DNA of 57,965 nt from an uncultured Bacteroidia bacterium. Lineage in GTDB: Bacteria; Bacteroidota; Bacteroidia; Bacteroidales; UBA932. The stretch lies in contig CADAOB010000009.1 of NCBI GenBank assembly GCA_902789445.1, forward strand, positions 1-57,965, read 5' to 3'. The notes beneath the pieces are model-generated. The model ran no database searches and had not been told where the DNA came from. It saw only the letters and a program-made list of their open reading frames with translations. Each line of letters opens with the position of its first letter. The stretch's first letter is position 1. Shown piece after piece: positions 327-57,965 of this stretch. The position numbers were made by a program, and so were the translations under genes.

Positions 327-770
327 CTAAAAGTAATACGTAAACCCGGCACCCAGGTCAGCTTGATAGGGCTTGTAAAAGAGCCGGAAATCGCAATGGC
401 TGCCTGCCAGGCCGACTTGGAATTTTGCAGCGCCCCAATAGGTTCCGATGAAATCGAATTCATAGCCGCCTCCGAGATAAGCGGTAACCTGTCGCCCTTT
501 GATCAAGTTCAGATTCAAGAGAAGCGGAACCTGGATGCCGGACAGGCGCGTACCATAGATATAACGGACGCCACCCAGCAGATTAAGCCACTGGTCAGGC
601 CTGCCTACGCGGGCACGCACCCCAAGCCCGAAACTGGGCGTAACGGAAGGGCTACTTGGAAGGAAACAGTCGAGACTGGCATCGATTCCCACACGGAGAA
701 CCTTGTCGTTCTGCCCCATCAGCAAGAGTGGCAGCAAAAGTGCCGCAAACAGAACAAGCATCCTTTTCAT
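327..770 (-). CDS. Small outer-membrane beta-barrel protein, 147 aa
   Basis: The first 19 or so residues (MKRMLVLFAALLLPLLLMG) form a signal peptide, so I start at the inner Met rather than 25 codons upstream. The mature part alternates short amphipathic strands with Gly/Asn turns and ends in FTYYF. That terminal aromatic residue is typical of outer-membrane barrels recognised by the Bam machinery. The length suits an 8-strand barrel of the Bacteroidota 'outer membrane beta-barrel' type. Function unknown. It is transcribed divergently from the beta-helix gene at 881 and shares a 110-bp promoter region with it. Confidence 0.75.
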   Translation of the reverse strand: MKRMLVLFAALLLPLLLMGQNDKVLRVGIDASLDCFLPSSPSVTPSFGLGVRARVGRPDQWLNLLGGVRYIYGTRLSGIQVPLLLNLNLIKGRQVTAYLGGGYEFDFIGTYWGAAKFQVGLAGSHCDFRLFYKPYQADLGAGFTYYF

Positions 771-35027: not shown

Positions 35028-36158
35028 ATGCTAGCACCCGCTCTCTTTTATGACACACTTTCCTCGCTGGGAATATCGTTCTATGTCGGAGTCCCCGATT
35101 CATTGCTGAAGTCGTTCTGCGCCTATGTTGCAGACCACAGCGACGATCGGCATCATATCATAGCCGCCAATGAAGGGGGTGCAATCGGCCTGGCGGCCGG
35201 TTACCACCTGGCTACGGGGAAGATTCCTGTCGTATATATGCAGAATTCCGGTATGGGAAATGCCGCGAATCCGATAATCTCCCTGATGGACAGAGATGTC
35301 TATCATATGCCACTCCTGCTGATCATCGGCTGGCGCGGCGAACCGGGACGGCACGATGAACCGCAGCACGTCAAACAGGGAAAAATCACCCTCCCGCTGC
35401 TGGACGCCATGCAGATCCGGCACGAAGTGCTGGCCGAAGAGCCAGCTGCCCTGGGTCCGCAGATGGACCGCGTGATTGCAGATCTGCGTACGAACCAGGA
35501 ACCCTTCGCGCTGGTTGTCAGAAAAGACACCTTCGAACCCTATAAGTTGGAGAAAAACGTGTCTTCCGGTTGGACGTTGCCCCGAGAACGGGCCCTGCAA
35601 CTGCTGACCGCCCGGTTGGGCAAGGACGACGTGATCGTTTCCACCACGGGCATGATCTCCCGCGAACTGTTCGAGTTCCGGGAACAGCGCCGGGAAGGGC
35701 ACGCGCACGACTTCCTGACCGTCGGATCGATGGGGCATGCCAGCCAGATTGCGCTGGGCATTTCCCTCTGCAAGCCAGAGCGGCGCGTCTTCTGTTTCGA
35801 CGGTGACGGCGCTTCGCTGATGCACCTGGGATCCTGGGCGATTACCGGCGCCAATGCCGCATCGAATTTCTATCACATCGTTTTCAACAACAGCGCACAC
35901 GATTCCGTGGGCGGGCAGCCGACCGTGGGATCCGCCATCGATTTCCCGGCAATCGCCAAGGCCTGCGGCTATCGCACCGCCTTGTCGGTTCAAACCGAGG
36001 AAGAGTTGACAAAGGCTATCGGTGCTTTCGACAGACTGACCAAGCCATTGCTGCTGGAGATCAAGGTCGCGAAAGGCGCCCGAAAAGACCTGGGGCGGCC
36101 GACCACGACACCCGTGCAGAACAAACAAGATTTAATGAACTTGCTTCAAAACCGATAG
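35028..36158 (+). CDS. aepY: Phosphonopyruvate decarboxylase
   Basis: This thiamine diphosphate enzyme converts phosphonopyruvate to phosphonoacetaldehyde, the step that makes phosphonate synthesis irreversible. The N-terminal half has ANEGGAIGLAAGYHLATG, with the Glu that activates ThDP, and NSGMGNAANPI. The C-terminal half has the ThDP/Mg motif GDGASLMHLG...NN from about residue 260, ending HDSVGGQPT. The length of 376 aa is normal. It sits two bases before the AEP transaminase gene and close to PEP mutase. Confidence 0.93.
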   Translation: MLAPALFYDTLSSLGISFYVGVPDSLLKSFCAYVADHSDDRHHIIAANEGGAIGLAAGYHLATGKIPVVYMQNSGMGNAANPIISLMDRDVYHMPLLLIIGWRGEPGRHDEPQHVKQGKITLPLLDAMQIRHEVLAEEPAALGPQMDRVIADLRTNQEPFALVVRKDTFEPYKLEKNVSSGWTLPRERALQLLTARLGKDDVIVSTTGMISRELFEFREQRREGHAHDFLTVGSMGHASQIALGISLCKPERRVFCFDGDGASLMHLGSWAITGANAASNFYHIVFNNSAHDSVGGQPTVGSAIDFPAIAKACGYRTALSVQTEEELTKAIGAFDRLTKPLLLEIKVAKGARKDLGRPTTTPVQNKQDLMNLLQNR

Positions 36159-36159
36159 T

Positions 36160-37278
36160 ATGCAATCCATCCAACGAAAAGTATTGCTCAATCCCGGCCC
36201 CGCGACAACCACCGACACGGTCAAGATGGCGCAAGTCGTTCCGGACATCTGCCCTCGGGAAAAGGAATTCGCCGGCAAAATGAAATCGCTTCGGGAAGAT
36301 TTGCTGAAAGTCGCCCACGCCGACCCAGCCCGCTATACCGCCGTGCTGTTCTGCGGATCCGGCACCATTAATATCGACATCTGCGTGAATTCCCTGCTGC
36401 CGGAAGGAAAAAAGATCCTGGTCGTCGACAACGGCGCCTATAACTCCCGCGCCGTCGAGGTTTGCCAATACTACGGATTGCCGCATATCGATCTGAAGAG
36501 TTCTGTCTTCGAACAACCGGATCTGAACCGGATCGAAGAAACGCTGAAAGCGAACCCGGACGTAGCGGTCGTCTATTGCGCCCACCACGAGACCGGCACG
36601 GGCCTGTTGAATCCCATCAGGGAGATCGGTGCCCTGGCACACAAATATGGCGCGATCTTTATTTCCGATACGACTTCCTCGTTGGGGATGATTCCGTTCG
36701 ACATCGAACGGGACAATGTGGATTTCTGCATGGCTTCCGCCCAGAAAGGACTGATGGCAATGTCGGGGCTTTCTTTCATCATCGGCCGGAAAGACATCAT
36801 CGAACAGTCCAAAGACTATCCGAAGCGGTCATACTACTGCAACCTCTATCTCCAGTATGCTTATTTCGAGAAAACGGGTGAAATGCACTTCACGCCACCC
36901 GTGCAAACGATCTATGCGACCATCCAGGCGCTGAAAGAATACTTTGCAGAAGGCGAAGAAAAGAAGTTTGCCCGGCATCGCGCCGTCTACGAAGCCATCC
37001 ACCGGGGGATCGACAAACTCGGATGGGAAACGGCCCTCCCCCGTGAAATCGAATCGGGGCTGGTCGTCTCCGTGAAATATCCGGACGACCCGAACTGGAA
37101 TTTCGAGAAAGTACACGATTACTGTTACGAGCGGGGCTTTACCATCTATCCCGGCAAGATTTCCACGACCGACACTTTCCGGCTCTGCTCACTGGGGAAG
37201 ATTTACCCGGAAGATATCGAGGCCTTCTTCACCGTTTTTACGGAAGCGCTCGACCATTTCGGAATCCGGCACAATTGA
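36160..37278 (+). CDS. phnW: 2-aminoethylphosphonate--pyruvate transaminase
   Basis: This class V PLP enzyme interconverts phosphonoacetaldehyde and 2-aminoethylphosphonate. The N-terminal LLNPGPATTTDTVK is diagnostic. PLP contacts are Asp 170 (FISDTTSSLG) and the Schiff-base Lys 196 (MASAQKGL). The length of 372 aa is typical. Because no phosphonatase (phnX) is present and PEP mutase is, the synthetic direction is likely here. The family is usually catabolic, so the direction is inferred from context. Confidence 0.92.
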   Translation: MQSIQRKVLLNPGPATTTDTVKMAQVVPDICPREKEFAGKMKSLREDLLKVAHADPARYTAVLFCGSGTINIDICVNSLLPEGKKILVVDNGAYNSRAVEVCQYYGLPHIDLKSSVFEQPDLNRIEETLKANPDVAVVYCAHHETGTGLLNPIREIGALAHKYGAIFISDTTSSLGMIPFDIERDNVDFCMASAQKGLMAMSGLSFIIGRKDIIEQSKDYPKRSYYCNLYLQYAYFEKTGEMHFTPPVQTIYATIQALKEYFAEGEEKKFARHRAVYEAIHRGIDKLGWETALPREIESGLVVSVKYPDDPNWNFEKVHDYCYERGFTIYPGKISTTDTFRLCSLGKIYPEDIEAFFTVFTEALDHFGIRHN

Positions 37279-37280
37279 TT

Positions 37281-38003
37281 ATGGTAACAACCGCCGTTAT
37301 TCTGGCTGCCGGCTTAGGCACCCGTTTCGGAAAAAGAACCGAAAAGATTCCGAAAGGTTTTATTCCTGTCGGGGGGAAACCCATGGTCATCCGTTCCATC
37401 GAAACGCTCCTTTCGTGCGGCATCACCCGCCTCATCATTGGAACCGGCTTCGGAAAAGAGGCTTACGAAGCGCTCGGCGACCGGTATCCCGGCATCGAAT
37501 GCGAATTCAGCCCCCGCTATGCGGAAACCAACAGTATGTACACACTGTTCAATTGCCGGAAAGTCATCGGCAACGATGACTTCCTGCTGCTCGAATCCGA
37601 CATCATTTACAATAAAACCGCAATTACGGAACTCCTCGAGGATCCGCATCCCGACATTATGCTCATCACTCCGGTCACGAAATTTCAAGACCAATACTAC
37701 GTGGCGCATGATGCGGATGGACGGCTGGTCAACTGCTCGACCGACCGGACGGCCATCGATGCGCAGGGAGAACTGGTCGGCATCCACAAACTGTCCTCCG
37801 CATTTTATAAGAGGATGTGCCGTGACTATGCGGCGAAAGCCGATGCTTCTCCGAAATTGGGCTATGAGTATGAACTGCTCCATATGTCACAGGCGCTCAT
37901 TCCTATGTACGTACTGAATTCCACCGGTACGCACTGGTATGAAATTGACGACGAACAGGATTTGAATTACGCGGAAAAGAATATCGTCCCTTATTTAGAC
38001 TGA
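37281..38003 (+). CDS. PntC/LicC-like nucleotidyltransferase (probable CMP-AEP synthesis)
   Basis: A sugar-nucleotide transferase fold is opened by VILAAGLGTRFGKRTEKIPKG. RYAETNSMYTL and LLESDIIY form the CTP and Mg sites, and YEIDDEQDL is near the end. The closest known relatives by motif are LicC (CTP:phosphocholine) and PntC (CTP:2-aminoethylphosphonate). Its place between phnW and PEP mutase makes 2-aminoethylphosphonate the likely substrate. I take the ATG at 37281; a TTG six bases earlier is possible. Confidence 0.8.
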   Translation: MVTTAVILAAGLGTRFGKRTEKIPKGFIPVGGKPMVIRSIETLLSCGITRLIIGTGFGKEAYEALGDRYPGIECEFSPRYAETNSMYTLFNCRKVIGNDDFLLLESDIIYNKTAITELLEDPHPDIMLITPVTKFQDQYYVAHDADGRLVNCSTDRTAIDAQGELVGIHKLSSAFYKRMCRDYAAKADASPKLGYEYELLHMSQALIPMYVLNSTGTHWYEIDDEQDLNYAEKNIVPYLD

Positions 38004-38010
38004 ACTATAT

Positions 38011-39318
38011 ATGGCAAAAAAGGTATATCTCGGCATGATCGCCGACATCATGCATCCCGGTCTGATCAACATCATCAACGAGGGCGCCAAGCACGGCGAC
38101 CTGATGATCGGGCTTTTTACTGACAGAGCCATCGCAACCCATAAAAGGATTCCTTACCTGACCTATGAACAGCGGAAAATGGTGGTCGAGCATATCAACG
38201 GCGTTAGTATAGTCGTACCGCAGGAAGAGTGGAGTTATGTCCCCAACCTACTAAAATACAAGCCCGATTATATTATTCACGGCGACGATTGGGTAGAAGG
38301 TCCCGATAAATGGCTCCGGAAAGAAGTCTTCGAGGTCATGAAGCAGATCGGCGGAGAGGTTATTGAAATTCCCTACACGCAAGGCATCACTTCATCCGGC
38401 CTGGACAAAGAGCTGAAGTCCTTGGGGACGACACCAGAAGCCCGTATGAAATCGCTTCGCCGATTAATCTCCGCCAAACCCGTCGTCCGCATCATCGAAT
38501 CGCACAATGGCCTTACCGGCCTGATTGCAGAACACATTTCCGTCGACGACGGCAGCGTGCATAAAGAATTCGACGGTATGTGGGCGTCTTCCCTGACGGA
38601 CTCGGTCTCTAAAGGAAAGCCGGATATCGAAGCCGTCGACCTGACGACCCGGCTACACGATCTGAATGATACGCTGGAGGTCACGACCAAGCCCGTGATT
38701 TTCGACGGGGACACTGGTGGGAAGATCGAGCATTTCCGCTTTACCGTCAAGACCCTGGAGCGTCTGGGTATCTCCGCCGTCATCATCGAAGACAAAGTCG
38801 GGCTGAAACAAAACTCCCTGTTCGGCACCGCCGCGGTGCAGAACCAGGACAGCATCGAAGGATTCTGCGCCAAAATCCGGGCAGGAAAGGAAGCGCAGGT
38901 TACCCGCGACTTTATGGTAATCGCGCGTATCGAGTCCCTGATTGCCGGGAAACCCGTGGCTGACGCTTTGGAACGCGCGCATGCCTATGTCGCGGCTGGC
39001 GCCGACGGAATCATGATCCATTCGAAGAACAAGGACGGTCAGGACATCAAGGCTTTTTGCGAGCAATTCCGCGCGACGGATGCGACGACGCCCATCGTCG
39101 CCGTCCCCACCACTTATAGCCAATTTACCGAGACGGAGCTTGCTGAATGGGGCGTCAATATCGTCATCTACGCCAACCATCTGCTTCGAAGCGCCTATCC
39201 GGCCATGGTCAATTGCGCGAAAAGCATCCTCCAGCACGAAAGGGCCAAGGAAGCTTCCGAACAATACTGTATGTCCGTCAAGGATATTCTGGAACTCATC
39301 CCCGGAACCAAGAACTAA
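38011..39318 (+). CDS. aepX: Phosphoenolpyruvate mutase with N-terminal cytidylyltransferase-like domain
   Basis: PEP mutase forms the C-P bond: phosphoenolpyruvate becomes phosphonopyruvate. The mutase domain (about 150-435) has the Mg residues in FDGDTGG (231-237) and EDKVGLKQNS (260-269), the EDKx5NS signature of true mutases. The N-terminal domain (1-130) looks like the TagD/GCT nucleotidyltransferase fold (YLGMIADIMHPGLINII, then ...HGDDW). Its first motif reads HPGL (15-18) in place of HxGH, so the second catalytic His is missing. A C-terminal mutase fused to such a domain is known in several bacteria. Confidence 0.93.
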   Translation: MAKKVYLGMIADIMHPGLINIINEGAKHGDLMIGLFTDRAIATHKRIPYLTYEQRKMVVEHINGVSIVVPQEEWSYVPNLLKYKPDYIIHGDDWVEGPDKWLRKEVFEVMKQIGGEVIEIPYTQGITSSGLDKELKSLGTTPEARMKSLRRLISAKPVVRIIESHNGLTGLIAEHISVDDGSVHKEFDGMWASSLTDSVSKGKPDIEAVDLTTRLHDLNDTLEVTTKPVIFDGDTGGKIEHFRFTVKTLERLGISAVIIEDKVGLKQNSLFGTAAVQNQDSIEGFCAKIRAGKEAQVTRDFMVIARIESLIAGKPVADALERAHAYVAAGADGIMIHSKNKDGQDIKAFCEQFRATDATTPIVAVPTTYSQFTETELAEWGVNIVIYANHLLRSAYPAMVNCAKSILQHERAKEASEQYCMSVKDILELIPGTKN

Positions 39319-40107
39319 ATGAGACTGATCGACAATGCTGAACTGAGATTGCTCCAGATGGAAATCCTGGACGATGTCCACCGTTTTTGCCAAACGGCCG
39401 GAATCCGTTATTCCCTGACGTACGGCACCCTGCTCGGAGCCGTCCGGCACAAGGGATACATCCCTTGGGACGACGATATCGATCTGATGATGCCTCGTCC
39501 CGACTACGAACGCTTCCTCAAGGAGTATTCCTCTCCGAAGAATGAAGTGGTCGTCCTGAAAGGAATCGACAGCTGCGTCGAGATGTTTTCCAAAGTATGC
39601 CGCAAAGGGACCCGGATGGTCGACAAGAAGCTGGGGCGGGACCAATGGGGTGTGAATATCGACATATTTCCCGTCGACGGCTGCCCAGCCGACGAAGCCC
39701 ACCGCGCCCTGATCGACCGGAAGATCAGCCTGCTGGCCAAAATCTGTCCCAGATACAAAGTCGTCAACCGGCAAAAATCCGCCTGGTTCCTGAAGTATCT
39801 GGCCAAACGCTGCCTGTATTTCTATCCGCATTCCGTCTTGCACCTGAAAGAAGAAATCGACAGGCTTGCCGCGTGCGATCCGGCGACCATGCCGTATGCC
39901 GGGGTTCTGATGGAAGGGTGTGACTCTTTCCTGACAGATTCTTCCGTCTATGAGGATTACATCCTTTTGCCGTTCGAAGACAAAGCTTATTGTGCAGTCC
40001 GGGAGTTCGACCGGCTGCTGACGACGAAATATGGAGATTATATGACGCCCCCGCCGCCGGAGGGAAGAATCAGCCTCCATCAGTATGATGTTTATATCGA
40101 AGACTGA
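39319..40107 (+). CDS. LicD-family phosphotransferase 1, 262 aa
   Basis: LicD proteins move phosphocholine or similar groups from a CDP carrier to a sugar. The motif YGTLLGAVRHKG followed by WDDDID (35-55) contains the nucleotidyltransferase-like Asp residues, and a second acidic site is NIDIFPVDG. It lies directly after PEP mutase, one base after its stop. I infer that it transfers AEP from CMP-AEP onto the growing polysaccharide. Confidence 0.88.
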   Translation: MRLIDNAELRLLQMEILDDVHRFCQTAGIRYSLTYGTLLGAVRHKGYIPWDDDIDLMMPRPDYERFLKEYSSPKNEVVVLKGIDSCVEMFSKVCRKGTRMVDKKLGRDQWGVNIDIFPVDGCPADEAHRALIDRKISLLAKICPRYKVVNRQKSAWFLKYLAKRCLYFYPHSVLHLKEEIDRLAACDPATMPYAGVLMEGCDSFLTDSSVYEDYILLPFEDKAYCAVREFDRLLTTKYGDYMTPPPPEGRISLHQYDVYIED

Positions 40108-40108
40108 C

Positions 40109-41047
40109 ATGACGCGTGTCCCCATTCTCTTTACCTTTGACCAATCGTTGGAAATGCCGGCGGGCGTCTGTATGACGTCGCTACTGGAGCATGCCGACGA
40201 GAGTACGTTCTACGACATCTTCGTCCTCCACGGCCCCGCGTGTGATTTCTCCCGCAGCCTGCTGAACAAACTGCCGGAAGTCTTCGGAAACTGCCGGATC
40301 ACGTTCCGCGAGGTGGTCGGCGAATTCGAAGGCGGGTATGAAATCCGAGGCATCCCCGAAACGGCGTACTACCGGCTGATTTCCCCGGAACTGATTCCCG
40401 AATATGACAGATTCCTTTATTCCGACGTGGACGTCATTTTCCGGGAAGACCTGAGCCGGTATTATCAGCTGGATCTGGGCAATTGTTATTTCGCGGCCGT
40501 CGACAACTGCTCCCGCCTGCGGCCCGACGTGCAAAAATATGTAGCCGACGCGCTGAAACTCGATTACCGCAACGGATACTACTATTCCGGCAATCTTGTG
40601 ATCAACGCGAAACAGATTCTGCAGGATAATAAAACGGCCGATTTCCGGAGATTGGGAAAGAACGAGTATGAACAGCAGGACATGGACATCATGAATATCG
40701 CCTGCAACAAACGATTCTATCCGTTAGGGCCGTCCTACTGTATGTCAAACTACCTCTATTCGCTGATCGTCAACCGGCGCAAAGAGATGGAATCCATCTA
40801 CGGGCCTGAGGAACTCGACCACGCACTCCGTTCCGGCATCGTCCATTACAACGGCGCCAAGCCCTGGAAAGAAGCCTGCATGAATATGGACATCTGGTGG
40901 GAATACTACCGGAGATCCATCTTTTTCGACGAGCGGTTCTGTCACGACTTCTGGGACGGCCGTCGAAAACTGCTCCTGAAACTCCCGCTGATCAAGCGGA
41001 TTAAAATGGTTTTACGTTATCCCCTCGACCGGAAATCCAATGAGTAA
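40109..41047 (+). CDS. Family 8 glycosyltransferase, 312 aa
   Basis: GT8 (LgtC-like) signals are PILFTFDQSLEMPAGVCMTSLL, FLYSDVDVIFREDL (the DxD site is Asp-Val-Asp), and HYNGAKPWKE near the C-terminus (HxxGxxKPW). A basic tail (KRIKMVLRYPLDRK) may bind the membrane. The donor is probably UDP-galactose or UDP-glucose by family. The start follows the LicD-1 stop by one base. Confidence 0.9.
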   Translation: MTRVPILFTFDQSLEMPAGVCMTSLLEHADESTFYDIFVLHGPACDFSRSLLNKLPEVFGNCRITFREVVGEFEGGYEIRGIPETAYYRLISPELIPEYDRFLYSDVDVIFREDLSRYYQLDLGNCYFAAVDNCSRLRPDVQKYVADALKLDYRNGYYYSGNLVINAKQILQDNKTADFRRLGKNEYEQQDMDIMNIACNKRFYPLGPSYCMSNYLYSLIVNRRKEMESIYGPEELDHALRSGIVHYNGAKPWKEACMNMDIWWEYYRRSIFFDERFCHDFWDGRRKLLLKLPLIKRIKMVLRYPLDRKSNE

Positions 41048-41837
41048 TCCTATCCCGCAAAGCGAAATCAAAGGAATGATGGTGGATATCCTGGCTGATA
41101 TCCACGACTTCTGCCAGAAGAACAACCTGCGCTATTATATGGCTTTCGGCACATTGCTGGGAGCCGTCCGGCACAAGGGCTTCATTCCCTGGGACGATGA
41201 CATCGACATCTGGCTGCCCCGGCCGGATTACGACCGCTTCCTGAAAGAATACAAAAGCGATCACTTTGAGGCTATTTGGGTCGGTAATCATCCGGACTAT
41301 CCCTTGGATTTTGCCAAAGTTCACGACATCCGCACGCGTCTTGTCGAAGATGGCGGCGACGGGGACTGGGGTGTTTTCGTAGACGTGTTCCCGCTCGACG
41401 GCGCGCCGGATGAGAAAACCTGGAAGCAGACGCTCAAACGCGTCGCCCTCGTCCGGCATCTGGTCGCCAACCAGCGTTTCACCCGAAAACTTGCTTTTTC
41501 CCGGAAAGCCGGCTGGAAAAAGAACCTGAGCATCCTGGCCGGACGGGTTATGCACCCTTTTCTGTCCTTGAAAAAACTGCTTCTGAGGGAAGACCGGATC
41601 ATGAAGAAAAACGCCTTTGCGGACTGCGACCATGTCTGCGACTATACGGACCTGACAGCCCAGTTCTTCGACAAGAAAATTTTCGCGGAGGCAGTCTTAC
41701 TTCCTTTCGAAGGACGCAAATTCCTCGCCCCGGTGGAATATGATAAGTGTCTGACCATGATGTTTGGGAATTATATGACCCCGCCTCCACCGGAAAAGCA
41801 GGTATCGTATCATGGATCAAAAGCTTACTGGAAATAG
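41040..41837 (+). CDS. LicD-family phosphotransferase 2, 265 aa
   Basis: It has the same core as LicD-1: FGTLLGAVRHKG and WDDDID (36-56), FVDVFPLDG, and the C-terminal 'FGNYMTPPPPEKQ' also found in LicD-1 (YGDYMTPPPPEGR). The two flank the GT8 gene, which suggests an ancient duplication around it. It overlaps GT8 by eight bases. It may move a second AEP or act on a different sugar. Confidence 0.88.
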   Translation: MSNPIPQSEIKGMMVDILADIHDFCQKNNLRYYMAFGTLLGAVRHKGFIPWDDDIDIWLPRPDYDRFLKEYKSDHFEAIWVGNHPDYPLDFAKVHDIRTRLVEDGGDGDWGVFVDVFPLDGAPDEKTWKQTLKRVALVRHLVANQRFTRKLAFSRKAGWKKNLSILAGRVMHPFLSLKKLLLREDRIMKKNAFADCDHVCDYTDLTAQFFDKKIFAEAVLLPFEGRKFLAPVEYDKCLTMMFGNYMTPPPPEKQVSYHGSKAYWK

Positions 41838-41855
41838 TTTTATCCCCTCTCTTCA

Positions 41856-42905
41856 ATGAAATCCTACGTTTTTCCCGGTGACATTGCCCCTCGGATCGCC
41901 GCCATCGGCTCCGAACCATTCATCTATATGCGGACTGACGCGTTCTCGCAAATTAATAAAGAGTCGGAACGCATGCTCCTCGATCTGATCCACTGCAAGG
42001 GTGGACGGACCATCATTTATACAGGTTCCGGGACGGGAGCCATGAGCGCCGTAGTTGAGAATTACGTTTCCACTAAGCAGAAAGCTTTCGTAATTGACGG
42101 CGGATCGTTCGGCCACCGCTGGTTTCAGCTCTGTGAATACTACGGCATCCCTGTCTTTGATTTCAAAGTACCCTTCGCGAAAGATATTGACTACACTTTA
42201 CTCGAACAGAAAGTCGCCTCAGAAAAACCCGACGTTTTCCTTTGCCAGCATCACGAAACATCTTCCGGCCAGTTGTTTGATTTGGAGAAAATCAGCGACA
42301 TCTGCCACCGATATGGAGTATCGCTTGTAGTTGATGTCATCAGCACTTTTTTGGCAGAACCGCTAGATATGGGTGCCTTGGACATTGACATCTGCATCAC
42401 CAGCACCCAAAAGGGCCTCAACATACCTCCGGGTCTCTCTATCCTGTTCTTCAGTCCGAAACTCGATGGCTACACTTTCAACCACAAGGGTTATTACTGG
42501 GACTTTGACGACAATTTCGCAAATCTGAAACGTGGACAGACGCCGTTCAGCCCGGCCACAATCCTATATCTGCAACTCCATGTCCGGCTTAACCAACTGG
42601 TCGAAGAAGGCGGAGAAAACAAGAACATCGCCGATGTCCGCCACCGGGCTCTTCATTTCCGGGCGCTTTGCCAAAAATATGGCTGGAATGTCCCGGCCGA
42701 AAACCCTTCCTATGCTATCACCGGCTTTCAGACGAAAGACACGGCCGACCGGGTCATCTTCAAAGGCCTGATCGAAGAATATGACACCTACATCATGCCC
42801 GGCGGCATCCCGGGATTCTACCGAGTTTCCCACATGGGACTGCAGAGCGACGAAGACCTCGACCGGCTGGCGGCGGCCATCCACGAATTTGAGCAGACAC
42901 TATGA
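41856..42905 (+). CDS. Class V aminotransferase of unknown substrate, 349 aa
   Basis: This PLP enzyme has IIYTGSGTGAMSA (phosphate binding), Asp 160 (LVVDVISTFL) and the Schiff-base Lys 186 (TSTQKGLN). It is related to the AEP transaminase but lacks its N-terminal NPGPATT signature and keeps FPGD instead. That makes a paralogue with a different aldehyde or keto substrate likely. Its stop overlaps the start of the cytidylyltransferase-oxidoreductase fusion (ATGA), so the two are translated together. Confidence 0.82.
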   Translation: MKSYVFPGDIAPRIAAIGSEPFIYMRTDAFSQINKESERMLLDLIHCKGGRTIIYTGSGTGAMSAVVENYVSTKQKAFVIDGGSFGHRWFQLCEYYGIPVFDFKVPFAKDIDYTLLEQKVASEKPDVFLCQHHETSSGQLFDLEKISDICHRYGVSLVVDVISTFLAEPLDMGALDIDICITSTQKGLNIPPGLSILFFSPKLDGYTFNHKGYYWDFDDNFANLKRGQTPFSPATILYLQLHVRLNQLVEEGGENKNIADVRHRALHFRALCQKYGWNVPAENPSYAITGFQTKDTADRVIFKGLIEEYDTYIMPGGIPGFYRVSHMGLQSDEDLDRLAAAIHEFEQTL

Positions 42906-44242
42906 AAAAAGTCATCACATACGGAACGTTCGATCTCTTTCACCAAGGACACTACAAGCTGCTGAAACGTGCCAAAGAACTGGGTGACTGGTTGATTGTC
43001 GGGGTCACAACCGATAATTTCGATTTGGAACGTGGCAAAATGAATACCTGCGACAACGTGATGGACCGCATCGCGGCCGTCCAAGCCACGGGTTTGGCGG
43101 ACCAGATCGTAATCGAGGAATACAAGGGCCAGAAGATTGACGATATTCAGAAATACAAGGTGGATGTCTTTGCCATCGGTTCGGATTGGACTGGCTATTT
43201 CGACTATCTGAAGGAATACTGCCAGGTGGTTTACCTTCCGCGGACTGAAGGAATCTCTAGCACACAGTTACGACAGGACAGGCCTACGGTCTCACTGGGC
43301 ATCATTGGAACAGGCAGCATCGCCCGCCGTTTTGTTCCCGAATCCAAATTCGTCAACAGTATTCCTGTCACGGCCGCCTTTAATCCCAATCAGGAAGAAT
43401 GCGCCGGTTTCTGCAAGCAGTTCGAGATACCCGTCGCCGCCAAAACACTTGATGAATTCTACCAGAACTGTTCGGCAGTTTATGTCGCATCCCCGCACTT
43501 CACGCACTACGAATATGTCAAGTCAGCGCTCAATGCCGGGAAGCACGTTCTCTGCGAAACCCCGTTCGTGTTCAAGCGGTCAGAAGCTGAAGAACTCTAC
43601 GGGATTGCGGAAAGCAAGAATCTGGTTTTGATGGTTGCTTTGAAAACGGCCTACTGTCCTGCCTTCGGCCATCTGATCACGCTGCTCAAATCGGGTATGA
43701 TCGGAGAGATTGTCGAGGTCAGTGCCTCGGTCACTACCCTGACTGACGAGAACTCCCAAAAAATGGACAGTCGCTACTTTGGTGGCAGTATGAGCGAAAA
43801 TGCCTGCTTCCCGTTGCTGCCCATTTTCAAACTGTTGGGTACGGACTATCGCAACATCAACTTCTACTCCAAGATCAAAAACGGCGTAGACATCTACACG
43901 AAAGCCGTATTCCGCTACGATTCCGCTGTGGCGTCATTCCAGGTTGGATTAGGCGCCAAGTCGGAAGGGAATATGGTAATATCAGGCACGAAAGGCTACG
44001 CTTACGTCCCGGCCCCTTGGTGGAAGACAGATTATTTTGAAATTCGATACGAAGACCAGAATCAGAATAAGAAGTATTTCTATCCTTATGCTGGCGAGGG
44101 TCTCCGATATGAAATAAAAGATTTCGTAACAGCTATCCTTCAAAAAAACAGTTTTTTTTCCAAAGTCTCAAAGAGGGAGAATCTCTACATGGCACAAGTC
44201 CAAGAGGCGTATCTATCTAAAAATCAATTATTTGTGTTATAA
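42902..44242 (+). CDS. Fusion of TagD-type cytidylyltransferase and Gfo/Idh/MocA domain, 446 aa
   Basis: Residues 1-125 are a complete TagD/GCT nucleotidyltransferase, with YGTFDLFHQGH (7-17, intact HxGH) and RTEGISST (114-121). Residues about 128-446 are a Gfo/Idh/MocA dinucleotide-binding protein, with GIIGTGSIA (133-141) in the Rossmann fold. The usual catalytic EKP motif reads ETP (219-221), and the usual Gly-rich motif with the catalytic His is replaced by SMSENACFPLL. The second domain may therefore be inactive or act differently. The product is probably a CDP- or CMP-activated small alcohol or phosphate. Confidence 0.85.
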   Translation: MKKVITYGTFDLFHQGHYKLLKRAKELGDWLIVGVTTDNFDLERGKMNTCDNVMDRIAAVQATGLADQIVIEEYKGQKIDDIQKYKVDVFAIGSDWTGYFDYLKEYCQVVYLPRTEGISSTQLRQDRPTVSLGIIGTGSIARRFVPESKFVNSIPVTAAFNPNQEECAGFCKQFEIPVAAKTLDEFYQNCSAVYVASPHFTHYEYVKSALNAGKHVLCETPFVFKRSEAEELYGIAESKNLVLMVALKTAYCPAFGHLITLLKSGMIGEIVEVSASVTTLTDENSQKMDSRYFGGSMSENACFPLLPIFKLLGTDYRNINFYSKIKNGVDIYTKAVFRYDSAVASFQVGLGAKSEGNMVISGTKGYAYVPAPWWKTDYFEIRYEDQNQNKKYFYPYAGEGLRYEIKDFVTAILQKNSFFSKVSKRENLYMAQVQEAYLSKNQLFVL

Positions 44243-44245
44243 CCC

Positions 44246-44857
44246 GTGGAATGCGTCATTAAAAGGATTGAAGATACCTCTTTCACTTACGAGGACATCA
44301 TCGCCTTGTTGCATCTTGCGTTTCAAGAAAGATTGGATCAAGGATTGGAGTTTACGACATCCCGGATGTCTGTGGATGAAATCAGGAGAAGGTCAACTAG
44401 CGGTATTCTACTGGTCGCTTATTCTCAAGAAACAAAAGAACTACTCGGAACCGGGATGATACATTTGATCAAAGATGAAAACGGTTTTCTATATGCCAAC
44501 GAGGAGCACAAGGGAGTTCATCCTTCGGTAAAACGTCTTGGAATTGGAAGTCGTCTGGAGGAGCAATTACAACGAATCGCTGCTGCAGAAGGTGCTGCTT
44601 ACATTATCAGCGACACTGCTGTCAGAGCAAGAAGTTCTGTCCTTTTTCATCTGCATCATGGGTTTTACAGATGGATGCTAGTTTCCTATTCTTCCACAGC
44701 CTACTATTCTATCGTCTTTAGAAAAGATATTCCCCTCCAAAGGAAAAAAGCATCGGTCCTTGCTCATGCCTTTCATTTCTGTTGCTCATGTATTTGGACT
44801 ATTTTAACGAAAAAAAAGAATGGGTCCTTTAGAAGATGGGTTGGTTTATTTCGATAA
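44246..44857 (+). CDS. GNAT-family N-acetyltransferase, 203 aa
   Basis: The acetyl-CoA loop is VHPSVKRLGIGSRLEEQL (R-x-x-G-x-G), followed by a core strand AAYIISDTAVRARSSV. The basic, hydrophobic C-terminus (about 165-203) may touch the membrane. The start is GTG three bases after the previous stop; the nearby ATG is out of frame. Placed after the aminotransferase and cytidylyltransferase fusion, it could N-acetylate the amino product. This is inferred from position only. Confidence 0.78.
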   Translation: MECVIKRIEDTSFTYEDIIALLHLAFQERLDQGLEFTTSRMSVDEIRRRSTSGILLVAYSQETKELLGTGMIHLIKDENGFLYANEEHKGVHPSVKRLGIGSRLEEQLQRIAAAEGAAYIISDTAVRARSSVLFHLHHGFYRWMLVSYSSTAYYSIVFRKDIPLQRKKASVLAHAFHFCCSCIWTILTKKKNGSFRRWVGLFR

Positions 44858-44863
44858 AGTTCT

Positions 44864-45694
44864 ATGGTAAGCCTAGGTATTAAAGATATTCAGCAAGTCA
44901 GCCTTGACATTCTTGTCTCTGTCCACAATTATTGTATCAAAAACAATATCAAGTACTCCTTAATGTATGGGACGCTTATTGGCGCAATCCGTCATCGAGG
45001 ATTCATACCGTGGGATGATGATATAGATATTATTATGCCACGTAAAGACTATGATCGTTTTTGTAAGACATTTTACCATGAAGACTTGGGAATAATCTCA
45101 GAAAAAAATGACGACTGTTATATAAATTACTGCCGCGTTTATGATAAAAAAAGGACCACCTGCTCATGTCTGATACCCTTCGCAAAAGACTACAAGGGCG
45201 GTGTATGGATAGATGTATTCCCAATAGATGGAGTCCCTGATGAGAGGTTTTCTTTTGAAGATAGCATAAACAAAATGCAAACCCTGTGGATTAAACAACT
45301 ACGATATCGCTTTTCAATGGCTAGTTTTCGCGAAATCGTCCAAACGTGTTCTTTTAAGGATTTCCTAATTTTATCTGCAATCAAATTATCGGGATCCGGC
45401 AGAAGCCTGCTCAAAAGAACCAATAAAGCGTTGCGAGCATTTGCAATCCGAGTTCCTTTATACGCCACCGGACACTGGTCACAGTTAACTTGTTTGGATG
45501 ACGGAGCAAAGAATTTTCAGGATATTGATGACATTAAAGACTTTACATTAATGCCTTTTGAGAACCATGATTTTTTCGTATTGAGCGGATTCCACAGAGT
45601 ACTCCAGAACATTTATGGGAACTATATGGAGCTTCCGCCTGAGAATCAACGTGTAAGGCATAATGTTACGACAACTTTTTTCTGGAATGAGTAG
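44864..45694 (+). CDS. LicD-family phosphotransferase 3, AT-rich, 276 aa
   Basis: The LicD core is YGTLIGAIRHRGFIPWDDDID (35-55, written here as the motif) with WIDVFPIDG and a C-terminal YGNYMELPPENQ. It is far more AT-rich than LicD-1 and LicD-2 and uses other codons, so it is not a recent copy of either. It is the likely transferase of the second activated group made by the genes just upstream. Confidence 0.85.
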   Translation: MVSLGIKDIQQVSLDILVSVHNYCIKNNIKYSLMYGTLIGAIRHRGFIPWDDDIDIIMPRKDYDRFCKTFYHEDLGIISEKNDDCYINYCRVYDKKRTTCSCLIPFAKDYKGGVWIDVFPIDGVPDERFSFEDSINKMQTLWIKQLRYRFSMASFREIVQTCSFKDFLILSAIKLSGSGRSLLKRTNKALRAFAIRVPLYATGHWSQLTCLDDGAKNFQDIDDIKDFTLMPFENHDFFVLSGFHRVLQNIYGNYMELPPENQRVRHNVTTTFFWNE

Positions 45695-53213: not shown

Positions 53214-55580
53214 ATGCAAGCTAACAATACAAACCGCGTCAACCTCGTCGATCTGTTTCTCTATCTGCTGAGCCACTGGTACTGGTTCGTGCTCTGCGCA
53301 GCCTTGTGTGGCGGCTACGCCTACTACAAATACGCGCAGAAGCCTTTCATCTACCGCAGCGATGCCACCGTCATCATAAAAGACCCAAGTAATGCGCAGA
53401 CAACGGCCAGCATGACGACCTACAGCAGCCAGATCAACCGCATCAACATGACAAACGAGATCCTGCAGCTTCGTTCCAAACAGTTGATGGCTGAGGCGGT
53501 CAAGGCGCTTGATGCGGACATTGACTATACGATTCCCATCAAGCTGCGCAATGTGGAGCTGTATCGCCTGGCCCCGGTCAAGATGAACATCCTCCGCGAC
53601 GAGCATACACCGGAGGCATTCCAATTGACGGTCACAACGATAGATGCCAATTCCATCCAGGTGCAACTCACGGACGGCCGCAGTGCAACCGTGGCTTTGG
53701 GAGACACGATTCCGATTTACGGAACGAAAGTCGTTTTCACGCCGACCCCTTATTACAATGGAGAAGGCGCTGGAAAGCCGGTTACTATCAGCAAGCGACC
53801 TGTCACCAGCGCGGCATTGGGCTATCTGGGACGACTGCGTGTCGTGCAAAGCGAAGGTACCATTCTGCAACTTTCTTTACAGGACTATTCCGTATGGCGT
53901 GCCAGTGATATTCTGAACATGCTGATCACCAAATATAATGAGGACGCCATCCGTGAGAAGAACCGCATCGCCGTCAACACGGCCCAATTCATCAACGAGC
54001 GCCTGCTTATCATCCAGAGCGAACTGGGCGGGGTGGAAGATGAAATCGCACGGTTCAAAACCTCCGAGCGCATCATGAATGTCGATCAGGCCACCACGCA
54101 GTACCTGAACGAGAACAAAGGTTACAATGCAGAAATCGTCAAGGTCGAAACGCAGATCAAACTTGCGGAATACCTGCATGACCACATCACCAACTCATTC
54201 CAGTCGTACGAAACCCTCCCTATCAACACAGGGTTGGAGGATACGCGAATCAGCAATGAGATCACCCAATACAACAATCTCATCCTTCAACGTGACCGCC
54301 TGCTTGAGGCTTCAAGTGCAGAAAGTCCGGCTGTAAAACAAGTCGAAAACACTTTGCTTCCGTTGAGGCAGAATATTCTAGGCTCAATAAACAACCTGCT
54401 TACTTCGCTCAATGTCCGCCGCAACGACCTGTCAAACCTGGAACAGGAATCCCTTCGTAAATTCACCGCGATGCCGGCCAAAGCCCGGCAACTCCTTTCT
54501 ATCGAGCGACAGCAGAAAATCAAGGAAAGCCTGTATCTCTACCTGCTCAACAAACGGGAGGAAAACGCCTTGACCCAGGCGATGGTGGACAACAACGCCC
54601 GGATGATTGACAGCGCCGCCGGTTCCACGGTACCGATTTATCCTTCGCGCAACAAGATGTTGCTGACCGCCATTCTCATCGGCCTGCTGATTCCGGGCGT
54701 CGTTCTGGTAGCCCGCATCTTCATCGACCAGAAGATCCGCAGCCGGAAAGACCTCGAAGACAGTACCCGTATCCCGTTCCTGGCCGAACTTCCCAAATCC
54801 AAGATGAAGAAAGCGAAGAAGGGGGAAAAGGAAGATCCGAAACGGACGGCCTACGCGAATTCAAGCCAGAAGTCCTTCACCGAAGCGATGCGGCTCATGG
54901 TCACCAACCTCGATTTCATGAAGCCGGAGGACTGCAGCCATCCGGTCATCGTCACGACCTCGTTCAATACTTCCGCCGGCAAAACCTTCGTAACGACCAA
55001 TACGGCCGCCTGCCTGGCCGATGCCAAAAAGAAAGTCGCATTGCTCGACCTGGACTTGCGCAAACGGACGATTTCCGGTCACTTCGGACTAAAACACAAC
55101 ACAATCGGTTTAAGTAATTATCTCAACGACGAGGCCCTCACGCTTCAGGACGTCATCCACAAGGACGTGCTCGACGGCGTGGACTTCATTCCGGCCGGCC
55201 ACATTCCGCCAAACCCCGCCGCCCTGCTCAGCCGCCAGCGTTTCGACGACTTGATCGCCCAGCTGCGCAACGAATACGACTACGTGCTGCTCGACGGTGT
55301 GCCTTACAGCGCCGTGGCCGACATGATGGTCGTCCAGCGGCTGGTGGACATGAATCTCTTCGTGATCCGGAGCGGCCAGATCGACCGGCGCAACTTGCCT
55401 TCGCTTGATGAGATCTATGAGAAGAATCAGCTCCACAACCCGTGCATCGTACTCAACGACACGGATTACAAAGGCCTCTATGGATACGGTCACGGTTATG
55501 GATACGGTTACGGATACGGCTATGGCTACGGTTATGGCTACGGCGAAGAGAAGAAGGGCCGGCACAAGAAAAAAAGGTAG
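53214..55580 (+). CDS. Chain-length regulator with tyrosine kinase domain (Wzc-like), 788 aa
   Basis: Two membrane helices (about 19-38 and 481-501) flank a large periplasmic domain with coiled-coil parts. The cytoplasmic kinase domain has a Walker A-type loop SFNTSAGKTFVTTN and the Walker A' LLDLDLRKRTI, with the later LDGVP. The C-terminus is a Gly-Tyr repeat with ten Tyr followed by a Lys/Arg-rich end. Such Tyr clusters are autophosphorylated in Wzc to control chain length. Wza and Wzc together form the export complex. Confidence 0.93.
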   Translation: MQANNTNRVNLVDLFLYLLSHWYWFVLCAALCGGYAYYKYAQKPFIYRSDATVIIKDPSNAQTTASMTTYSSQINRINMTNEILQLRSKQLMAEAVKALDADIDYTIPIKLRNVELYRLAPVKMNILRDEHTPEAFQLTVTTIDANSIQVQLTDGRSATVALGDTIPIYGTKVVFTPTPYYNGEGAGKPVTISKRPVTSAALGYLGRLRVVQSEGTILQLSLQDYSVWRASDILNMLITKYNEDAIREKNRIAVNTAQFINERLLIIQSELGGVEDEIARFKTSERIMNVDQATTQYLNENKGYNAEIVKVETQIKLAEYLHDHITNSFQSYETLPINTGLEDTRISNEITQYNNLILQRDRLLEASSAESPAVKQVENTLLPLRQNILGSINNLLTSLNVRRNDLSNLEQESLRKFTAMPAKARQLLSIERQQKIKESLYLYLLNKREENALTQAMVDNNARMIDSAAGSTVPIYPSRNKMLLTAILIGLLIPGVVLVARIFIDQKIRSRKDLEDSTRIPFLAELPKSKMKKAKKGEKEDPKRTAYANSSQKSFTEAMRLMVTNLDFMKPEDCSHPVIVTTSFNTSAGKTFVTTNTAACLADAKKKVALLDLDLRKRTISGHFGLKHNTIGLSNYLNDEALTLQDVIHKDVLDGVDFIPAGHIPPNPAALLSRQRFDDLIAQLRNEYDYVLLDGVPYSAVADMMVVQRLVDMNLFVIRSGQIDRRNLPSLDEIYEKNQLHNPCIVLNDTDYKGLYGYGHGYGYGYGYGYGYGYGYGEEKKGRHKKKR
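55479..55544 (+). repeat. Hexanucleotide-like tandem repeat coding Gly-Tyr
   Basis: About eleven near-repeats of a six-base unit (GGN TAY) code for the Tyr cluster of the kinase. One unit reads Gly-His instead of Gly-Tyr. Both Tyr codons and all Gly third bases vary, so it is not a pure DNA repeat, but length change by slippage is plausible. Confidence 0.85.
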
Positions 55581-57012: not shown

Positions 57013-57042
57013 GTAGTTCCGCCAAACCACAAGGGGACAAAA

Positions 57043-57073
57043 GAGCCGGCCACCAGCGTCGGGCAGCCGGCTC
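57043..57073 (-). terminator. Terminator for the minus-strand peptide gene
   Basis: GAGCCGGC (57043-57050) pairs with GCCGGCTC (57066-57073) across a 15-base loop. On the minus strand TTTTG follows, so it ends transcription of the 44-aa peptide gene. On the plus strand there is no T-tract, but the hairpin may also slow the capsule transcript. Confidence 0.7.
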
Positions 57074-57116
57074 CCCGCCGGGCATCGGACAGTATCACAA
57101 TGGTGGTTCATTCACG

Positions 57117-57202
57117 GCAGTGTGAAAACCGACAGCACAGCTATCGGTATCGCCAGTAGCCGTGGACGAAGACCTTTCGGCCGTACTGCCTGCGCCAGTG
57201 GG
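57117..57202. repeat. Direct repeat copy A (86 bp), tail of the 44-aa peptide gene
   Basis: This 86-base stretch is repeated without gaps, with scattered substitutions, at 57694-57779. It includes the peptide gene's 3' half and its stop codon. Here the gene is complete; in copy B it is truncated. Confidence 0.8.
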
Positions 57203-57275
57203 CGCGGACGAACACGGGATTGCCATACGTACCTCGTACGAGAATAACAATCGTTACCTTTACACTTATTATCAT
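57141..57275 (-). CDS. Novel small basic protein, 44 aa
   Basis: The frame starts at the ATG at 57275 and stops at 57141. It encodes a hydrophobic N-terminus (MIISVKVTIVILVRG) and a basic aromatic C-terminus (residues 31-44: YGRKVFVHGYWRYR). Net charge is strongly positive and there is no Cys. I know no family for it. Support comes from a TAnnTTTG promoter, a terminator and a second copy of its 3' end whose reading frame is kept (GRKVFVYGYWRYR). It may be a membrane-active or RNA-binding peptide. Confidence 0.6.
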   Translation of the reverse strand: MIISVKVTIVILVRGTYGNPVFVRAHWRRQYGRKVFVHGYWRYR

Positions 57276-57443
57276 TGCTATTAGTTTAAAAAGGTGAAGG
57301 TGAAAGGGAGGATTGTCTTTTTAGTACCTGCCCGACGTATGGAACAAGAAAAGAGAGCATCGGCTCGTCTTTATCCGGGTTCCGATGCTCTCCTGCACAT
57401 ATTCGGTCAGGTATTGACCGGATCCTCTTTTAAACTAATAGCA
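57276..57443 (-). promoter_or_regulatory. Structured leader with 16-bp end-pairing repeat
   Basis: TGCTATTAGTTTAAAA (57276-57291) and TTTTAAACTAATAGCA (57428-57443) are perfect inverted repeats. In the minus-strand RNA the first arm lies at the predicted 5' end and the second directly before the ATG at 57275. Between them are a hairpin CGGTCA/TGACCG (57404-57420) and an 11-bp hairpin (57353-57392). The end pairing would hide the start region. It is a candidate cis-regulatory RNA. Confidence 0.6.
57353..57392 (-). terminator. Possible attenuator hairpin in the leader
   Basis: GAGAGCATCGG (57353-57363) and CCGATGCTCTC (57382-57392) form a perfect 11-bp stem. On the minus strand TTTTCTTG follows, as in an intrinsic terminator. 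Because it stands between promoter and coding sequence, it may act as an attenuator. Confidence 0.5.
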
Positions 57444-57446
57444 TTG

Positions 57447-57454
57447 CAAAGATA
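57447..57454 (-). promoter_or_regulatory. -7 promoter box for the 44-aa peptide gene
   Basis: On the minus strand TATCTTTG (57454 to 57447) fits TAnnTTTG. A start a few bases downstream would place the RNA 5' end at the outer arm of the inverted repeat. Confidence 0.6.
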
Positions 57455-57495
57455 AGCACGAATTCGCAAACAGCGTTGACAAAAAAGCAATTTAT

Positions 57496-57530
57496 GCGGG
57501 GTGATCCGAAATTATTTTCCAATCACCCGC
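57496..57530. repeat. Inverted repeat between promoter and copy B
   Basis: GCGGGGTGAT (57496-57505) pairs with ATCACCCGC (57522-57530), with one bulged G. There is no T-tract directly beside it. It may be a factor-binding site upstream of the peptide promoter. The next 160 bases to 57693 show nothing else I can support. Confidence 0.35.
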
Positions 57531-57693: not shown

Positions 57694-57779
57694 GCAGCGT
57701 AAGAACTGACGGCGGAGCTATCGATATCGCCAGTAGCCGTAGACGAACACCTTCCGGCCGTTCTGTAAACGCCAGTGGG
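57694..57779 (-). pseudogene. 5'-truncated second copy of the 44-aa peptide gene
   Basis: Direct repeat copy B. On the minus strand it reads HWRLQNGRKVFVYGYWRYR and then a TAG stop, in the same frame as copy A. An in-frame TGA lies two codons upstream of HWR, and the start region, leader and promoter of copy A are missing. Homology ends sharply at 57779, exactly where the IS66 sequence begins. Confidence 0.65.
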
Positions 57780-57965
57780 TTCAGCCGGAAAAACTATCTC
57801 TTCGCCGGCAATCACGCCGCCGCTGTCAGGGCCGCCATCGCATACTCCTTTATCACCTCCTGCAAGGCCGTCGGTGTCGACGTCCGCACATGGCTCGTCG
57901 ACGTCCTCGGACAGATCCCCTCCTACAAGGGCCCTTGGCGGGATCTTCTGCCTGCCCACTGGCAC
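57780..57965 (+). mobile_element. C-terminal fragment of an IS66-family transposase
   Basis: The plus strand encodes 62 codons without a stop to the window end, opening FSRKNYLFAGNHAAAVRAAI and continuing to LLPAHW. This matches the C-terminal IS66 domain (RKNYLFAG.H.AA.RAA..YS...SCKA.GV...WL.DVL). The catalytic DDE part is absent. The element is therefore a 5'-deleted relic, joined to the peptide gene copy, and it may continue beyond the window. Confidence 0.85.

Follow-up and report, generated by a model that had tools for sequence, protein, structure and literature searches.

Start-codon locking by the two ends of an mRNA is best known from the type I toxins of phyla other than the Bacteroidota. 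In hok/Sok, elements at the 5' and 3' ends pair to give an inert full-length mRNA, and compensatory changes are found across the family. The aapA3 mRNA of Helicobacter, as described in PMC6733600, is likewise rendered inert by a 5'-3' long-distance helix and is activated by 3' trimming. Here we describe a unit that appears to follow a comparable plan and is found on the minus strand near one end of contig CADAOB010000009.1 from an uncultured Bacteroidia bacterium (Bacteroidales, UBA932); this complete contig of 57,965 bases, analysed in its entirety, is referred to as the window, and the genome it belongs to is 84% complete and comprises 2.26 Mb. Comparison of the unit with its relatives establishes, at the level of predicted features, a shared plan of a TAnnTTTG promoter box, a helix (P1) between the RNA 5' end and the start-codon region, a terminator-like hairpin (P2), a conserved basic peptide under purifying selection and a helix (P3) between the leader and the 3' untranslated region (UTR), the letters of the P1 arms varying while their complementarity is kept. 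The unit is probably a stand-alone riboregulated microprotein gene with a self-locking mRNA like those of hok and aapA, acting as a toxin-like module of fast turnover.

P1 of the window is formed by two arms of 19 nucleotides (nt) that are 95% complementary and 136 nt apart, one at the predicted RNA 5' end (57428-57446, minus strand) and one reaching into the start codon (57273-57291, minus strand). An earlier note on this DNA, made from the sequence alone, had described perfect inverted repeats of 16 base pairs (bp) at the two ends of the leader, and this is indeed the longest perfect repeat of the arms: shuffles of 57141-57500 gave at most 12 bp, 0 of 1000 reaching 16, and among the 321 tiles of 360 bp taken from the window none of the others exceeds 13 bp. 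The statement that the second arm touches the start codon should be corrected, since with one A.A mismatch the repeat continues into this codon and takes in its U and G; in the predicted fold of the window leader these two pair at a probability of about 0.8, but the A, being at the mismatch, does not.

Relatives of the unit were collected from peptide hits. The 78 hits gave 65 units, after exclusion of 10 with no in-frame ATG or too little upstream sequence and of 3 duplicates; one of the 65 is without a promoter box, and 13 of the remaining 64 leaders were removed as near-identical before the pairing tests, leaving 51 units. The window leader was among those removed, being near-identical to that of unit L010 (ratio 0.90), and is absent from the 51-unit tests, whereas it is included in the P2 count, in the AUG pairing and same-genome tests and in a swap test of 8 leaders. 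Among the 51 non-redundant units, own P1 arms give a duplex energy of -24.5 kcal/mol as opposed to -12.7 kcal/mol (standard deviation 3.9) for swapped arms, and the own arm is the best partner in 34 of the 51 rows and in 37 of the 51 columns of the comparison, and in both for 31 units; with three control pairs of sequence stretches this applies to just 1, 0 and 0 rows and to 3, 0 and 1 columns. In a swap test of the 8 leaders put by eye in the window's class, that of the window among them, every arm pairs best with its own partner in both directions (8 of 8), with a mean of -25.4 kcal/mol against -13.2 kcal/mol for swapped arms and -23.1 kcal/mol for the strongest swap; this test made use of L039, L011 and the partial unit L004:258 (no usable ATG or box), as the arms alone were needed. 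The same contrast is seen within genomes, since in the 14 genomes with at least two usable leaders own pairs average -24.9 kcal/mol (33) and cross pairs -13.1 kcal/mol (48), with 8 of the 48 cross pairs at -18 kcal/mol or stronger. The arm pairs of same-genome copies are largely private.

Covariation points in the same direction. The nearest leader in the 61 genomes searched, from G052, is 89% identical over 207 nt, and its arms differ from those of the window yet are complementary to each other. An alignment of 25 class I leaders (A7, MAFFT) left the arms unaligned and was replaced by one of 12 close leaders (A8; 11 distinct) together with a covariance model. The outer P1 helix of the 12 close leaders is 99% paired, with changes on both sides in 6 of 9 pairs, the three invariant pairs being those of the start codon with its CAU partner, and for their whole structure four of five covariation measures beat nearly all shuffles. 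The covariance model, built from these 12 leaders, gave 50 matches in 70 sources at E<=1, a few of them partial or doubtful, and in the alignment of 45 distinct leaders 26 of 27 pairs show changes on both sides and 95.3% of cells are paired, compared with 33-43% when the partners are slid. The swap tests are free of the structure-fitting bias of the model alignment. Uncompensated substitutions in the repeat arms had been named in the earlier note as the observation that would speak against it; the swap tests and the covariance model show strong compensation instead. The AUG is paired at a probability of at least 0.5 in 51 of the 64 leaders. It should also be mentioned that in 72 pairs of units with an identity of at least 0.80 in the open reading frame (ORF), the arms are 0.74 and 0.69 identical, the leader core 0.83 and the ORF 0.86, and that random unit pairs share an identity of 0.58 in the 5' arm; the arms thus change quickly and in step, either through selection that favours private pairing or through the exchange of whole leaders among units.

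P2 is likewise general. In the window it spans 57346-57393 (minus strand), with a hairpin of -22.3 kcal/mol at 57352-57393 followed by the U-rich tail TTTCTTGTT, and a hairpin of -10 kcal/mol or better with a U-tail is present in 64 of 64 leaders as opposed to 3 of 64 shuffled ones. For transcripts terminated at P2 a length of about 77 nt is predicted (median over 51 units; range 68-141). A small hairpin, CGGTCA/TGACCG, is seen by eye between P1 and P2 at 57404-57420 (minus strand) and was not seen in every class, so that two inner hairpins, one of them terminator-like, are found where the earlier note had placed them.

P3, which was not in the feature list of that note, is a long-range helix between the leader and the 3' UTR, and since it crosses P1 the mRNA would fold into a large pseudoknot. 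In 47 of the 51 units the strongest contiguous leader/3'-UTR helix begins between 75 and 55 nt upstream of the ATG, and a GTRNY sequence is found at most 9 nt past the helix in 33 of 51. The leader strand varies in sequence, and each of the variants CCGAGGGGA, CCGAGGAGA, CCGAGAGGA, CCGATGGGA, GCCGCAGG and GCCGAAGG, and further GTCGGGCA, GGTCCGGAGG, AGCAGGAAAGGA, CACCGTCGG, GCCGGATG and CAGCTTGATG, has its own complement in its own 3' UTR. A contiguous-helix score, which replaced free duplex folding, is 25.1 for own and 19.8 (standard deviation 4.6) for swapped strands, against 17.0 and 17.1 in an ORF control; the own partner is strictly best in just 7 of 51 rows and 8 of 51 columns because many units have an identical P3 sequence. 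In the window the 5' strand is GTCGGGCA at 57329-57336 (57328-57337 in a 10-nt version; minus strand), a computed helix with compensated variants elsewhere, and it is directly followed by the motif GGTACT at 57323-57328 (minus strand). Its 3' strand is by eye TGCCCGGC at 57077-57084 (minus strand; 8 pairs, one of them G.U), a site matching that of the sister units L002, L010 and L034, while an alternative partner, CTGCCCGACG at 57057-57066 (minus strand), lies in the terminator loop and forms 10 perfect pairs, the strongest contiguous leader/3'-UTR helix of the window. The P3 strand of the window pairs locally within the leader in the minimum-energy fold, and by eye the same applies to two other window-class leaders. 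The predicted intrinsic terminator itself, GAGCCGGC/GCCGGCTC followed by TTTT, is recognised by eye at 57039-57073 (minus strand) and closes the unit as had been proposed. In the CCGA-type P3 class at least 4 T are found in the 6 nt past the 3' strand in 26 of 29 units, the strands being 236-252 nt apart, and here the terminator seems, as judged from the sequences, to have its other half in the leader; such a split terminator of class I would, if real, be an unusual way of ending a transcript. The lowest-scoring members, units L098 and L133, have a GTCTA motif in place of GTACT, and at L133 (G041) two units are found about 1.9 kilobases (kb) apart.

The ORF at 57141-57275 (minus strand) encodes a basic peptide of 44 amino acids, the family peptides having about 45 residues. 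Conservation of the frame in relatives had been suggested as a check, and the ratio of nonsynonymous to synonymous substitution rates (dN/dS) is below 1 in 71 of 71 selected ORF pairs, with a median of 0.26; these pairs are of equal length, have a synonymous difference (pS) of 0.05-0.6 and differ by less than 30%, and, having members in common, they are not independent of each other. Constraint is stronger on the C-terminal part (nonsynonymous difference, pN, 0.080; pS 0.359) than on the N-terminal part (0.150 and 0.268). This substitution pattern indicates that the peptide gene is coding and under purifying selection. In 18 diverse family peptides two arginines, a glycine and a valine are invariant, and by eye a short hydrophobic stretch near the N-terminus is followed by a strongly basic part. 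Together, frame conservation and arm compensation support the notion of a regulated and easily missed small gene with an end-pairing leader.

The description of the peptide as undescribed is correct for the window itself, in which Rfam 15 has 0 matches (in 8 related loci tRNAs alone pass the cut-off) and whose peptide matches no Pfam or NCBIfam family at the cut-offs, but less so for the family, since sister peptide B lies at the edge of Pfam WXXGXW (PF12779; 18.1 bits, cut-off 18) and 14 of 15 family peptides match phrog_21154, a phage protein of unknown function, at E<=1 (best 7.9e-9). The window peptide alone does not have phrog_21154 among its matches at E<=10, and the phrog_21154 profile matches 3 of 393 genomes of the order and also the E. 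coli control. A phage origin was considered and set aside, as viral contigs yielded no relative for A3, a set limited to class I-like peptides and peptide C, and peptide C had no tblastn match in phages. No published work on such a system in Bacteroidales was found among open-licence papers. PMC8040213 reports thousands of candidate structured RNAs from many taxa including Bacteroidota, 99 of which may overlap small genes; the present family may be among them.

The promoter box of the window, TATCTTTG (57447-57454, minus strand), is found in the sequence where the earlier note had placed it, on the same strand as the other claimed features, and we take it to be the Bacteroidota -7 promoter consensus; a TAnnTTTG-type box lies 133-208 nt upstream of the ATG in 64 of 65 units. 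Upstream of it is the promoter element GCTTTTTTGTCAACGCTGTTTG (57467-57488, minus strand), for which the genome has exactly 3 sites at up to 3 mismatches (0 in a backwards control), one at each of three family units; its form GCTTTTTTGTCAnnGCTGTTTG is common to the three full units of the window genome and has no further genome sites. A 21-nt promoter match at another site of the genome (L048) does not belong to a unit; by eye its neighbours are rpsT and radC. On contig C5 of the window genome two further units are found in tandem behind an UpxY-type antiterminator gene (NF033644, 8.9e-34), and a truncated unit is present besides this pair.

Within the bacterial family to which the window genome belongs, a profile built from 18 peptides has matches in 45 of 199 genomes (24 of the 96 good ones), at up to six places per genome; in an order-wide sample it has matches in 3 of 393 genomes, all three from this same family. 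The named relatives are uncultured Bacteroidales and Candidatus Coprenecus (16 loci), the latter placed by NCBI in Rikenellaceae incertae sedis. A second leader covariance model, which is class-specific and has no match in the window's own genome, finds 45 of 199 family genomes and 1 of 393 genomes of the order, that one again within the family. The units are scattered, and with ORFs called by a simple rule recurrent neighbours are found at no more than 5 of 51 units: a sugar transferase/UpxY locus at 5, one orthologous site at 4, a loose set of three regulator-like proteins at 3 and one further protein at 3. A common neighbour gene was set aside, the largest group covering just 5 of 51 units.

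Decayed copies are also present. None of the 19 inspected leader-model matches without a peptide hit, a subset of the total, has a full-length family peptide; short family-like frames follow in L172 (38 amino acids) and L178 (34 amino acids), and others are truncated or frameshifted. Beside tRNA-Leu genes with the anticodon tag the remnants L186, L187 and L188 keep little beyond the P2 hairpin and L182 and L184 keep P2 and the P3 5' strand, and a full unit (L064/L015) is found beside a tRNA-Leu with an anticodon identical to that at the remnant loci. In L177 (about 540-680, minus strand) a leader with promoter box, P2 and P3 5' strand directly precedes an unrelated frame of 214 codons, whose start looks by eye like that of a lipoprotein, and so gives the impression of a captured leader. 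A RelB antitoxin gene (PF04221, 2.3e-13) is found 56 nt past the peptide-less leader match L179 (minus strand), a helix-turn-helix gene (PF01381, 1e-11) precedes unit L031, and HicB-like proteins are seen by eye near L034 and L112 with marginal or no Pfam support. A shared sequence, ACGACAGTCCCTA, abuts three units or broken parts (L061 54-71, L032 468-485 and L174) and is probably one end of an insertion sequence.

In the window the coding end of the peptide gene is duplicated at 57694-57779 (minus strand; 81% over 86 nt), as had been noticed before; it belongs to a second copy of the gene, truncated to its 3' end, of which 19 residues fit the family model (G000:C9:57721-57777). Next to it the contig closes with an IS66 transposase C-terminus (57786-57965, plus strand; PF13817, 7e-8). 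Further away, an exopolysaccharide region (35028-45691, plus strand) encodes phosphoenolpyruvate mutase, phosphonopyruvate decarboxylase and 2-aminoethylphosphonate aminotransferase, each above its own NCBIfam cut-off, and three genes that fit a cholinephosphotransferase model below the cut-off and are presumably LicD-like; the phosphonate pathway and the cholinephosphotransferase-like genes suggest a phosphonate-decorated polysaccharide. A tyrosine-kinase-like chain-length protein (53214-55580, plus strand) ends in a run of Gly-Tyr pairs (55470-55580) that derives partly from 12-bp direct repeats.

How the unit would work can be proposed as follows. P1 would form once its 3' arm is transcribed, hiding the start codon, and many transcripts would end at P2; those reading through would be closed by P3 as their 3' end emerges, so that the full-length mRNA would be silent, and synthesis of the peptide would have to await the opening of P1, either by processing or by a binding partner. 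A toxin-like module appears to be the likeliest role in view of the likeness to hok and aapA, the private arms, the scatter of the units over many sites, their patchy occurrence and the existence of broken copies.

Several observations are nonetheless in poor agreement with this reading. In 17 of the 51 rows the best P1 partner is not the unit's own; the TAnnTTTG box was probably mispicked in L031 and L111, as the box was sought over about 130 nt and some picks are wrong for this reason. The inner P1 helix of the 12 close leaders is 82.7% paired, with changes on both sides in 5 of 9 pairs; the fifth covariation measure, the number of further pair types, is not above shuffles (193 of 500 as high); and the model alignment (A9) is fitted to the structure, leans its way and holds the few partial or doubtful matches. 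In silico removal of the RNA up to P2 clearly opened the AUG in just 28 of 51 units, which makes 5' processing a possible but not a general means of release. For P3, free duplex folding discriminates weakly (-38.3 for own against -33.8 for swapped strands, the own partner being best in just 4 of 51 rows), and the strongest leader/3'-UTR helix of the window sits elsewhere than in the sister units. Antisense boxes of the TAnnTTTG promoter type occur in 7 of 51 units, compared with 7.45 (standard deviation 2.5) in shuffles, so that the usual type I antitoxin is missing as far as this count goes, which does not extend to other promoter types or to trans-encoded antitoxins. Furthermore, a clear membrane segment is not seen by eye in the peptide, and for a sister peptide structure prediction gave a helix at low confidence (predicted local distance difference test 69.8, predicted template modelling score 0.37).

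The foremost alternative, which we regard as possible though unlikely, is autoregulation, in which the Arg/Lys-rich peptide would bind its own structured mRNA, be it at P1, at P3 or at the motif that follows P3, and would thereby switch its synthesis off or release it, in the manner of some ribosomal proteins acting on their leaders. The peptide is indeed very basic, it is most constrained in its C-terminal half, and leader box and peptide occur together in 64 units, but a fixed binding site should be conserved in sequence, and the P1 arms are on the contrary the most variable part of the unit, only P2, P3 and the following motif being conserved enough for such a site. Somewhat less probable still is an attenuated leader with P2 as a regulated terminator and P1 and P3 as mere stabilisers, the peptide being a benign accessory, for instance one associated with the ribosome. 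The occurrence of an intrinsic-terminator-like P2 in every leader would be explained, and a basic peptide suits ribosome or RNA binding, yet the patchy occurrence in 45 of 199 genomes and the decayed copies are unlike a housekeeping role.

A further notion, to which we would give about the same small chance as to the attenuated leader, is that of a one-promoter, one-strand toxin-antitoxin-like module, in which the short RNA stopped at P2 would be the antitoxin and the 5'-processed long RNA the toxin message. The short RNA qualifies as a candidate antitoxin because it would be shaped like a small RNA, with the 5' arm and a terminator hairpin, and its arm is complementary to the start-codon region of the long mRNA. 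If this were true, the private arm pair of each copy would keep copies in the same genome from silencing each other, and the class I mRNA would end at a split terminator with halves about 240 nt apart, in the leader and the 3' UTR.

The invertible capsule promoters of Bacteroides, located in exopolysaccharide regions, are flanked by inverted repeats of about 19 bp with a spacing of 140-170 bp, and the arm length, the spacing and the exopolysaccharide neighbourhood of the window unit fit a DNA switch in which the arms are recombination sites and a segment of 174 bp flips. Such a switch is nevertheless highly improbable, since the arms differ between units and hence provide no shared recombinase site, the promoter is outside the segment, and no inverted form was noticed among the aligned leaders listed. 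The direction count is less clean, in that a hairpin with a U-tail is found forward in 64 of 64 leaders but on the opposite strand in 29, where it is stronger than the forward one in 6. Least probable of all is a miniature inverted-repeat transposable element inserted between promoter and gene, for although the terminal repeats, the short size and the scattered sites would be in keeping with it, the arms are not shared across copies, the genome has a single full-length leader match, and the conserved unit is a whole that comprises the promoter, the leader, the peptide and the 3' UTR.

The reading of a riboregulated microprotein gene with a self-locking mRNA adds an RNA family supported by covariation, together with its microprotein, to the uncultured gut Bacteroidales, and it would extend start-codon locking by the own ends of an mRNA. 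The arm pairs, which vary while remaining complementary, moreover make a test bed for clean swap experiments. One trait of type I toxin-antitoxin systems is present, a small-peptide mRNA with a 5'-3' long-distance interaction (P1, P3 and their compensated variants), but in the absence of a conserved antisense promoter of the TAnnTTTG type the family is not filed as such a system; the unit may work like the hok and aapA mRNAs and is likened to them, not classed among them. Like hok it has an end-pairing mRNA with compensatory changes, whereas, unlike in hok, no mok-like overlapping frame was noticed (by eye only), there is no conserved antisense promoter, and the peptide is basic and not clearly membrane-spanning; an upstream ORF in the leader, likewise looked for by eye only, was set aside. 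With aapA/IsoA, as described in PMC6733600, the family shares a short peptide gene, compensatory helix changes, several chromosomal copies and a full-length mRNA silent by way of a 5'-3' long-distance interaction, a silence which here we infer. The aapA system has a known antisense RNA, IsoA, in contrast to the present family with no conserved antisense promoter, and its long-distance helix hides the Shine-Dalgarno sequence (PMC6733600), whereas in the window family it is the predicted RNA 5' end itself that pairs with the start codon and, unlike in aapA, a second, crossing helix joins the leader to the 3' UTR.
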